A program made the translations under genes and the position numbers. A DNA stretch of 64,000 nucleotides from the NCBI RefSeq assembly GCF_000235425.2, contig NZ_KI912266.1:6926035-6990034 (forward strand), in the 5' to 3' direction. Source of the DNA: Pseudofrankia saprophytica (GTDB lineage: Bacteria > Actinomycetota > Actinomycetes > Frankiales > Frankiaceae). This document shows positions 18,061 to 23,608 of this stretch, piece by piece (position 1 is the stretch's first letter; each line of letters starts with the position of its first letter). The notes below the pieces were generated by a model. That model saw nothing but the letters and a program-made list of their open reading frames with translations. It was not told where the DNA came from and ran no database searches.

Positions 18061-18088
18061 GCCAATATAGAACGCGTTCTATATTGGC
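18061..18088. promoter_or_regulatory. Perfect 28-bp palindrome with KstR-type core, operator candidate
   Basis: Both 14-nt halves are exact complements. The core TAGAACGCGTTCTA (18068-18081) fits TnnAACnnGTTnnA, the pattern recognised by the TetR-family steroid regulator KstR. It is the most AT-rich spot in the gap upstream of the acyl-CoA ligase and probably overlaps its promoter. Confidence 0.75.
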
Positions 18089-18190
18089 CGCCATACCGCG
18101 CGCTGGCGGGTCGAGGCCGGCCAGCCGTCGGCCCCGGTTACCGGTCGGCGCCGCGGGCGAAATCCCGGCCCGGCCGCGTGCGGATGGACG

Positions 18191-20005
18191 TCAGCCAGGC
18201 TCGGTGTAGTTCTCGCGCCACTCGCTCATGGGCCCGTTCGTCCCGTCCGAACGCGCGGCAGAGACGCGCCACCGGACGGCGCCGTAGCCCTGCCAGGTCA
18301 TCGAGTAGGACGGGGCGGTTCCCTGGTATGGCGCCAGCATCTGCCAGCCGCTGCCCGACGACTGCTCGAACAACAGCACATAGCTGTCCGCGCCCGCGAC
18401 GGCGTTCCACGAGTAGGTGACCTTGTCACCCGGGAAGAAGGTGGCTCGATCCGCCGGGCCGATGAGGACGGGCGCGGTGAGCGGCTGACGCACCGTGACG
18501 GTGACCGGCTGGCTCGTCGCGCGTGTCCCGGTCGCGTCGATCACCGTCAGCGTGACGGTATAGGTGCCTGGGCTCTCGAAGGTGTAGCTGGCGCTGCCGT
18601 CACCCGACTCGCGGACGACTCCGCCGAAGGAGAAGTCGTACGTCGACAGCGGATGTGAGCCGGCGCGGGAGCCGGAACCGTCGGCCGCCACCGTGAGCGG
18701 CGCGTCGCCACTGGTCTTGTCGAGGCGCAGCGCCGCCGTCGGCGGGTCGTTCTTCAGCGAGGTGGTGATGGACGCGGTGGTGTGCGTGCCTGTTGTTCCG
18801 GTCGGGCCGGACCCGCTGGGCGACGCCCTCGCGGTCTCGGAACCAGTCGGGGCCGGCGGCGTCGAGACGACGCCCTCGCTGGGCGACGCCCCGCCATCAC
18901 CAGGCGTGGCCGTCGAACCCCGGCCCGGCAGCACGAACGCGGCCAGCATTACCACAGCGGCCGCCAGGGCCGCCGCCATGATCACCGTCACGACCGGCCA
19001 CCGGCTCCGGCGCGCGGCATCCGGCCGACGGATCGCGCCGCCGTCGTCATCGCCGTCCTCGGCGGCGGCGCCGCGGCCGGACCTGGCCGGCGGCAGCGCA
19101 AGGACGACTGTCCCGCCAGGAGGTTCGGGCGATTCAGGGGAGCCGGGAGACCGAGGGGATTCGGGAGCTTCAGGGGATTCAGACACGCCGGGGGTCCGCG
19201 CGGCGGGAATCGCCGCCGCCGGCCCGGGCGAGTCCAGGCCGCCCGCTCCGGCGGGGCCACGCTCGGCCGGACCGTCCGCAGGCCCACCACCGGGCGCCGC
19301 CTCCGCTCCCCGCGCCGAAGGCGTGTCGGCTTCCGGAGCCGGTTCGGGTGGTTCGGGATAGGCGGGTGGCTCGTCTGGAACGGGATTCTCGGGCGCTACC
19401 AGGTCGCGCAGCGCGACGGCCCTGGGCCGGCCCCCCGCGGTCCGGTCCGGGAACGTCGGCTCGGCGGCGGGCTTGGCGCGCCCGCTGACGGCCTCGCCGA
19501 TGCGGGCCAGCAGGAATTCCCTGGCCTCGCCTTCGGAAAGCGGGAAGAGGTCCAGGGAGACGATGTGGCGCAGCAGCGCGGGGCGGTCGCAGTCCTCCAC
19601 CCGGACCGGGATCAGCCGGCGTGCGAAGCCGTCGGGGTCCTGCCCGTAGGCCGCCTGCCACTCCGTATTGCCGTACACCGACTGCAGATATGCCCCGGAC
19701 AGGACGGCGAGGATCCTTCTCGCCCCCTGCATGCCCTCCTGCATCCGGGCCATCCAGTGGGTGCCCGGTACGAAGTCCCAGGCCTGCACGAGGACCCGGT
19801 AGCCGGCGGACTCCAGCTGCCAGGCGATCCACTCGGCCCAGTCGCGATCGGCCTGCGTATAGGACACGAAGAAGTCCCAGAGGCCTTCCGGCGGCCGCGC
19901 CGCGGTACCACCATCCGTTTCCGCGCGCCGCCGGGTGAGGACGTCCGAGGCGTCGTCCTTCTGCTCCACGCCGCCGGCTCCTGAACCGGTCGTCTGGGTA
20001 TGCAT
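18191..20005 (-). CDS. Transmembrane TIR-domain protein with extracellular PKD and Fn3-like domains
   Basis: A 604-residue protein from the ATG at 20005; the frame also allows a start at 20200, adding 65 low-complexity residues. Residues 42-175 form a TIR domain (WDFFVSYTQADRDWAEWIAW, then AWDFVPGTHW, ILAVLSGAYL, NTEWQAAYGQDP); Glu115 aligns with the glutamate that is catalytic in NAD-cleaving TIRs. A 150-residue Pro/Glu/Ser linker follows, then one membrane helix (about 336-360), a Thr/Ser-rich stalk, a PKD domain (about 420-506) and an Fn3/Ig-like domain (about 510-603). With the TIR inside, the PKD and Fn3 parts would face outside. No other defence gene is adjacent. Function is unknown; a surface-sensing signalling or immune role is inference. 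A TAGAAT hexamer (20091-20096, minus strand) may be its -10. Confidence 0.85.
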   Translation of the reverse strand: MHTQTTGSGAGGVEQKDDASDVLTRRRAETDGGTAARPPEGLWDFFVSYTQADRDWAEWIAWQLESAGYRVLVQAWDFVPGTHWMARMQEGMQGARRILAVLSGAYLQSVYGNTEWQAAYGQDPDGFARRLIPVRVEDCDRPALLRHIVSLDLFPLSEGEAREFLLARIGEAVSGRAKPAAEPTFPDRTAGGRPRAVALRDLVAPENPVPDEPPAYPEPPEPAPEADTPSARGAEAAPGGGPADGPAERGPAGAGGLDSPGPAAAIPAARTPGVSESPEAPESPRSPGSPESPEPPGGTVVLALPPARSGRGAAAEDGDDDGGAIRRPDAARRSRWPVVTVIMAAALAAAVVMLAAFVLPGRGSTATPGDGGASPSEGVVSTPPAPTGSETARASPSGSGPTGTTGTHTTASITTSLKNDPPTAALRLDKTSGDAPLTVAADGSGSRAGSHPLSTYDFSFGGVVRESGDGSASYTFESPGTYTVTLTVIDATGTRATSQPVTVTVRQPLTAPVLIGPADRATFFPGDKVTYSWNAVAGADSYVLLFEQSSGSGWQMLAPYQGTAPSYSMTWQGYGAVRWRVSAARSDGTNGPMSEWRENYTEPG

Positions 20006-20232
20006 TCCCGGCGGGCCGCTCGGCGCCGCGTCAGGATTCCGTTTGTCCAAGGCCCCCGCCACCTGCCGTGCCCCCGCCGGACCGAGACGGATTCTATCGG
20101 CGCGCGAGCCGGATTCCCGATGTGTCGGCGACGGCACGCCGACGGGCGCGGCGGGACAGCAGGCGGCCGCGGTACCAGGCCGGGAGACGGCACCGGCCAC
20201 CGCCCCGGCTGGCCGAGCCTGGTCCGTGCTTC

Positions 20233-22919: not shown

Positions 22920-23174
22920 ATGGACGTCGGCATCCGCGAGTTGCGGGACAACCTGAGCCGCCACCTTGCCGAGGTACGCGCAGGTCATACGCTGACCATC
23001 ACCGATCATGGCCGCGCCATCGCCCGGCTGGTACCCGTCACGGAACCCACGCCGCTCGAGCGGTTGATCGCCGAGGGCCTAGTGGAACCAGCCCGGTCGC
23101 GTACCCGCGCTACACCCAGGCCGGTCGACGCGAACGGCCCGGTCAGCGACCTCGTGAGCGAGCAGCGCGGATGA
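22920..23174 (+). CDS. vapB: VapB/Phd-type antitoxin
   Basis: An 84-residue protein starting at the ATG at 22920 with a strong AAGGAGG site. The N-terminal half (VGIRELRDNLSRHLAEVRAG, then LTITDHGRAIARLVP) is the Phd/YefM-like DNA-binding antitoxin fold. The C-terminal half is disordered and charged and should wrap the toxin. It overlaps the toxin gene by 4 bp (ATGA), the standard arrangement. The antitoxin both neutralises the toxin and represses the operon. Confidence 0.9.
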   Translation: MDVGIRELRDNLSRHLAEVRAGHTLTITDHGRAIARLVPVTEPTPLERLIAEGLVEPARSRTRATPRPVDANGPVSDLVSEQRG

Positions 23175-23608
23175 TCTGCTATTTCGACACCTCCGCCTTC
23201 ATCTCGCTTCTGGTCAGCGAATCTGGCTCGGCGGCGGCGACGCAGGTCTGGAAAGCAGCGGACCGTGTGGTGTCGTCGAGGTTGCTCTACGTCGAGGCCG
23301 CTGCCGGGCTAGCGCAGGCGCATCGGCTCGGACGGCTCAGCAGGATCACCCACGAGGCGGCGCTGTCTCAGCTTGACGAGCTGTACGCCAACGTCGACGT
23401 CGTGGCCGTGAACGACCGTCTCGTGGCCAGGGCGGCGACGCTTGCCAGGAGGATGGCCCTGCGAGCCTATGACGCGGTGCATTGCGCAGCCGCGCAGATG
23501 CTGGCATCGGATGACCTTGTGATCGCCAGCGGCGACAAGACACTCCTGTCGGCCTGCCGAACCCTGGGCCTGGCCACAGCCGATACCAGCGTCATCAGTC
23601 AGGCCTAG
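23171..23608 (+). CDS. vapC: VapC-type PIN-domain ribonuclease toxin
   Basis: A 145-residue PIN protein. The acidic metal-binding residues are Asp6 (YFDTSA), Glu42 (YVEAAAG), Asp101 (AYDAVHCAA) and Asp122 (ASGDKTLL), so the nuclease centre is intact. VapC toxins cut tRNA or rRNA and stop growth when the antitoxin is degraded. The pair sits alone between catabolic and transporter genes, which is common for mobile addiction modules, although no element ends were seen. Confidence 0.92.
   Translation: MICYFDTSAFISLLVSESGSAAATQVWKAADRVVSSRLLYVEAAAGLAQAHRLGRLSRITHEAALSQLDELYANVDVVAVNDRLVARAATLARRMALRAYDAVHCAAAQMLASDDLVIASGDKTLLSACRTLGLATADTSVISQA

Follow-up and report, generated by a model that had tools for sequence, protein, structure and literature searches.

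A Predicted Single-Pass TIR Protein with an Extracellular PKD and Fibronectin-III-Like Region in Pseudofrankia saprophytica: A Possible Surface Sensor in a TIR/EAD1 Conflict Network

The genome of Pseudofrankia saprophytica, a soil actinobacterium (9.98 Mb in two contigs), encodes a 604-residue protein, here P0001, in which an N-terminal TIR domain with a candidate catalytic glutamate is predicted to be joined through a long linker and one membrane helix to an extracellular PKD and fibronectin-III (FN3)-like region. Because the same outer half is joined to TIR in this species and to an EAD1 domain in a sister species, as judged from the sequences, a bacterial receptor assembled from swappable parts is suggested. 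We propose that P0001 is a single-pass sensor-effector, with its N-terminus inside the cell, of a TIR/EAD1 conflict network (self-sacrifice immunity) in which an outside signal would lead through clustering to NAD cleavage, a reading to which we give about an even chance.

Results

The gene lies in a stretch of 64,000 nucleotides (the window), on the minus strand at 18191–20005, with its ATG at 20005 and its stop at 18191; an alternative GTG start at 20200 would add 65 residues. An earlier note on this DNA had placed the gene correctly but had left out its strand. The minus strand holds the sole open frame across this interval, with GC contents of 0.71, 0.64, and 0.84 at codon positions 1, 2, and 3, which is gene-like, and a plus-strand reading was ruled out because stops close the frame. 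Behind a short variable head, P0001 comprises a TIR_2 domain (residues 45–161; 19523..19873), a Pro/Glu/Ala-rich, presumably cytoplasmic linker of ∼150 residues (187–336; 18998..19447), a single predicted transmembrane helix (337–359; 18929..18997), a Ser/Thr/Pro/Gly-rich, predicted extracellular stalk (360–418; 18752..18928), a PKD domain (419–505; 18491..18751), and an FN3-like domain (511–600; 18206..18475), all on the minus strand. This order supports the receptor-like look that the earlier note had pointed out, and the long Pro/Glu linker described there is likewise evident.

The PKD domain was identified by Pfam (PKD_4, E 5.5e-12), and its model superimposes on 2c26 with a Z of 10.5 (2.1 Å over 88 residues). 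Residues 511–600 gave no match in the Pfam search of P0001; they were assigned by an AF2 ectodomain model built from three relatives (pLDDT ∼88 for the FN3-like part) and by its matches to FN3 structures (6hyf_C, Z 10.3, 2.5 Å over 84 residues). The two extracellular beta domains claimed earlier are thus supported, one by Pfam and the other by structure prediction, and together they resemble parts of adhesins and cell-wall enzymes. Structure prediction of the TIR, PKD, and FN3 parts, which had been proposed as a check, supported all three folds, with structural Z values of ∼10 to 18.

The TIR assignment is strong (124.9 bits against a Pfam gathering score of 28; E 3.2e-36). Group 6 bacterial TIRs are characterized by an RDFFVSY-like box 1, a WDxVPG box 2, and two Trp residues in alphaA (PMC7075850), and P0001 conforms to this consensus with WDFFVSY, AWDFVPG, and DWAEWIAW. 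Its AF2 model (pLDDT 91) matches TIR structures with Z values of 15–18, the closest being Hydra TRR-2 (Z 18), SPARTA (17), AbTir (15.7), and SARM1 (15), with MyD88 and TIR-STING also among them; since the model lies near NADase TIRs and adaptor TIRs alike, the fold alone cannot tell an enzyme from an adaptor. A sequence search with this domain returned MyD88 and TLR TIRs first, and a plasmid search matched the TIR domain only.

Glu115 (19661..19663, minus strand), the candidate catalytic residue, aligns by profile with the WPQKEL glutamate of PdTIR (3h16) and occupies the alphaC position (S-x-x-Y/F ... E-W/L) that is characteristic of catalytic TIR NADases. The same column holds Glu in 85 of 117 aligned TIR rows from the genus (116 distinct ORFs plus the query), the remaining 32 being replaced, mostly by Ala, Gln, or Val, or missing. 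By reading of the sequences, Glu is present in seven of the ten membrane-segment-bearing TIRs described below and in a relative from Parafrankia colletiae (L001), and is absent from L171, L172, and L192; a TLR TIR (the chicken TLR15 alignment row) has it as well. A general lack of this residue among homologues had been named as a finding that would tell against the reading, and these counts show the opposite.

The best 19-residue hydrophobic window of P0001 (residues 341–359) scores 2.83; the best score among 2000 shuffled versions of P0001 was 2.39. Five Arg/Lys residues precede the helix and one follows it, which places the TIR domain inside by charge, and an excess of Arg/Lys before the helix was found in all seven proteins compared. 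By hydropathy and charge, then, P0001 is predicted to be a single-pass protein with its N-terminus in and its C-terminus outside. The helix reported in the earlier note is therefore strong in P0001 but marginal in the P. colletiae relative, where the hydrophobic stretch is 15 residues long and its 19-residue score of 1.61 was reached by 378 of 2000 shuffles; a frameshift hiding a stronger helix there was ruled out, the other frames likewise lacking hydrophobic character. This marginal helix is the main doubt over the membrane step.

Among 35 genomes of the family and 394 sampled genomes of the class, just three places had the PKD-FN3 ectodomain in full: the window, P. colletiae L001 (and apparently the same gene in G024), and locus L098 of the sister species G003. 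The P. colletiae protein, which is 42% identical to P0001 over the alignment, bears a TIR domain and retains the glutamate, PKD, and FN3, so that the domain order sought elsewhere recurs there, albeit with its marginal helix. In G003 (L098:5285-6682) an EAD1 domain (E 4e-14) stands in place of TIR and is followed by a transmembrane segment (19-residue score 2.88, likewise beyond 2000 shuffles), PKD, and FN3, the ectodomain being 48% identical to that of P0001. At the level of sequence, TIR and EAD1 have thus been exchanged on one membrane-ectodomain half. EAD1 is a small helical, death-domain-like coupling domain of bacterial conflict systems, and it has been proposed to recruit effectors by EAD1-EAD1 contact (PMC7159879). 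P0001 has no EAD1 domain detectable by Pfam, and G003 additionally encodes two EAD1-TIR proteins (L186 and L201).

P0001 belongs to a large family. Its own genome contains 26 TIR_2 matches, P0001 included, and 32 EAD1 matches, the latter being the highest number per genome among the Pseudofrankia-group genomes examined; its TIR domain shares up to 66% identity with those of paralogues encoded there that combine TIR with TPR or WD40. Soluble forms, which carry WD40, TPR, or NTPase parts, make up most of the TIR proteins in the genus. In a census confined to fetched loci, some of them cut at contig ends, and with hydropathy as a crude test for membrane segments, 10 of 116 distinct TIR ORFs lacked a P-loop motif and had a strongly hydrophobic segment, and six of these ten had one predicted membrane segment and a C-terminal outside part. 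Besides P0001, the six are a TIR-TM-WD40 protein of the same genome (L099), a 738-residue TIR-EAD1-TM-NHL beta-propeller protein (L109:1407-3623, plus strand, G006), two TIR-TM proteins with small ectodomains (L116 in G002 and L199 in G003), and a protein whose outside part is a short tail (L112); neither L112 nor a further membrane-segment-bearing TIR, L192, has a sizeable ectodomain. An EAD1-TM-WD40 protein (L142) occurs in G005.

Several other loci of this family were observed. In L171 (2181-3740, plus strand) and L172 (2319-4169, minus strand), TIR is followed by hydrophobic segments and then a bacterial PH domain (bPH_2), and the catalytic Glu is replaced by Ala. A TIR gene at L104:2390-4118 (plus strand) is followed in another frame by an apparent hydrophobic stretch and apparent WD40-like repeats, and is probably a frame-shifted TIR-TM-WD40 copy. 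A region of ∼60 kb in the P. saprophytica genome (C1:2024966-2083952) with three TIR genes, that of L099 included, and several EAD1 genes looks like a conflict-gene island.

P0001 is flanked directly by an acyl-CoA ligase gene and an amidohydrolase gene. Five of the seven sister genomes (G001, G002, G005, G006, and G007) have these two genes side by side, 50–279 bp apart, and the junction sequences there link them directly; comparison of gaps and junctions shows that a segment at 18089..20232, comprising the TIR gene and its flanks, is missing from these sisters. Membership in an amidohydrolase/ligase operon was therefore ruled out, and the TIR gene is best regarded as an accessory insertion beside, not inside, a metabolic unit. 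Insertion by a mobile element was also considered and rejected, as border repeats worth naming were not found. The claim that the gene lies outside any defense operon holds, given these metabolic neighbors, but the description of it as standing alone does not fully hold, for it is a member of a large TIR/EAD1 family that includes other membrane-anchored proteins.

A search for conserved neighbors, proposed in the earlier note, revealed no partner gene common to the window, L001, and L098 loci: L001 is flanked by Type ISP restriction-modification and barstar genes, and L098 by GH3-like and pabB-like genes (labels from reading translations) and a contig end. Interaction partners of P0001, if there are any, must consequently be encoded elsewhere. 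PADLOC gave weak matches to the TIR part only, and by PADLOC and inspection of the direct neighbors, the partner genes or diagnostic second domains of Thoeris, SPARTA, CBASS TIR-STING/TIR-SAVED, and TIR-NLR were not found at P0001.

Two features of the surrounding DNA are recorded here. A perfect 28-nt palindrome, GCCAATATAGAACGCGTTCTATATTGGC, lies at 18061-18088, upstream of the acyl-CoA ligase gene; the motif TAGAACNNGTTCTA has only 4 sites in the genome and 0 in a reversed control, and recurs at the equivalent place in several sister genomes. The palindrome resembles a KstR-type operator, so that a sterol or alicyclic-acid regulon may include the amidohydrolase/ligase pair. At 23171-23608 there is a PIN-domain protein gene (7e-13), preceded by a small ORF resembling a Phd/VapB-type antitoxin.

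Discussion

If P0001 is a sensor-effector, its PKD-FN3 region would bind, on its stalk, a target at or beyond the cell surface (a glycan, a protein, or the surface of a phage or competitor), and binding would cluster the protein within the membrane. The flexible linker would allow the cytoplasmic TIR domains to pack together, and the clustered TIR might then cleave NAD+ through Glu115, with NAD depletion or an ADP-ribose-type signal as the result. The sequences themselves show the domain order, the single helix with its charge pattern, the glutamate position, the family membership, the exchange of TIR and EAD1, and the insertion of the gene between its two metabolic neighbors; the steps from ligand sensing through clustering and NAD cleavage to a defensive outcome we infer. 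A conflict-gene role is in keeping with the accessory, patchy distribution of the gene. In G003, the EAD1-TM-ectodomain protein would attract, in trans, effectors that carry EAD1, among them the genome's own EAD1-TIR proteins; because G003 encodes such proteins, its two-protein version could mimic in trans what P0001 may do in one chain.

The outer half could instead be a cell-wall tether that keeps the TIR domain membrane-held and inactive, with a trigger inside the cell such as a phage, the level of NAD, damage to the membrane, or cleavage of the linker by a protease. PKD and FN3 domains are often passive spacers, the genus contains membrane-segment-bearing TIRs without a sizeable ectodomain (L112 and L192) or with a bPH domain (L171 and L172), and the amoeba TirC is kept in check by a transmembrane helix (PMC13142454). 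However, the ectodomain has been kept while the cytoplasmic domain was swapped, which fits sensing better than a spacer, and we regard a tether as rather unlikely. A role in which the TIR domain has no catalytic function and assembles cytoplasmic partners at the envelope through protein interaction, making P0001 an adhesin-like surface organizer, would agree with the prominence of MyD88 and TLR TIRs in the sequence search, with the replacement or loss of the glutamate in 32 of 117 rows, and with the adhesin- and cell-wall-enzyme-like character of PKD-FN3. Because Glu115 is kept both in P0001 and in its Parafrankia relative, and the TIR model is equally close to the SPARTA, AbTir, and SARM1 TIRs, we find such a scaffold distinctly unlikely.

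The membrane step itself could be mistaken, in which case P0001 would be cytoplasmic and PKD and FN3 would be intracellular binding domains, as might be thought from the marginal helix of L001 and from the many TIR relatives in these genomes that have soluble WD40 or TPR parts and no membrane segment. The helix scores of P0001 and L098, both beyond 2000 shuffles, and the charge bias in seven of seven proteins make this very unlikely.

Described bacterial TIR defense proteins mostly have their trigger inside the cell. If the sensor-effector reading is true, some bacteria couple outside sensing directly to NAD-based death or signaling. The EAD1/TIR pair makes the model testable, as both proteins should answer the same kind of external cue via different cytoplasmic routes.

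In receptor-type Ser/Thr kinases of the PknB type, an N-terminal cytoplasmic enzyme is followed by a Pro-rich linker, one transmembrane helix, and a C-terminal ectodomain; P0001 and L098 have a similar layout, with TIR or EAD1 where those proteins have a kinase. The actinobacterial group 6 proteins, in which TIR is combined with TPR, AP-ATPase, or WD40 (Toshchakov and Neuwald 2020, PMC7075850), share their motifs with P0001, but their partners are soluble cytoplasmic repeat or ATPase parts, whereas P0001 has a predicted membrane helix and extracellular PKD-FN3. The conflict systems with EAD1 that are known from multicellular bacteria (Kaur et al. 2020, PMC7159879; 2021, PMC8195603) are alike in that EAD1 sits on a P0001-type membrane-ectodomain half in G003 and between TIR and the membrane segment in L109; the available text of those papers deals with membrane components (EACC1, GAP1-N2) and with other proteins that bear extracellular domains, and describes no TIR-TM-ectodomain receptors. 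The statement in the earlier note that no system of this layout had been described is consistent with the literature searched, which lay mostly outside subscription papers and yielded no description of a bacterial TIR-TM-ectodomain protein.

With metazoan Toll-like/IL-1 receptors, P0001 has in common an ectodomain, one transmembrane segment, and a cytoplasmic TIR whose fold best matches Hydra TRR-2. Toll-like receptors, however, have N-terminal LRRs, a transmembrane segment, and a C-terminal TIR, whereas the TIR of P0001 is N-terminal, of group 6, and endowed with an NADase-type Glu, and its ectodomain is PKD-FN3 without LRRs, so that convergence is likelier than descent. It is possible, though we suggest it only tentatively, that P0001 represents a class of bacterial surface receptors that serve self-sacrifice immunity and combine exchangeable ectodomains (PKD-FN3, WD40, or NHL) with one transmembrane helix and either a TIR enzyme or the EAD1 adaptor; such a class would be an independent analogue of the animal Toll-like/death-receptor pair.
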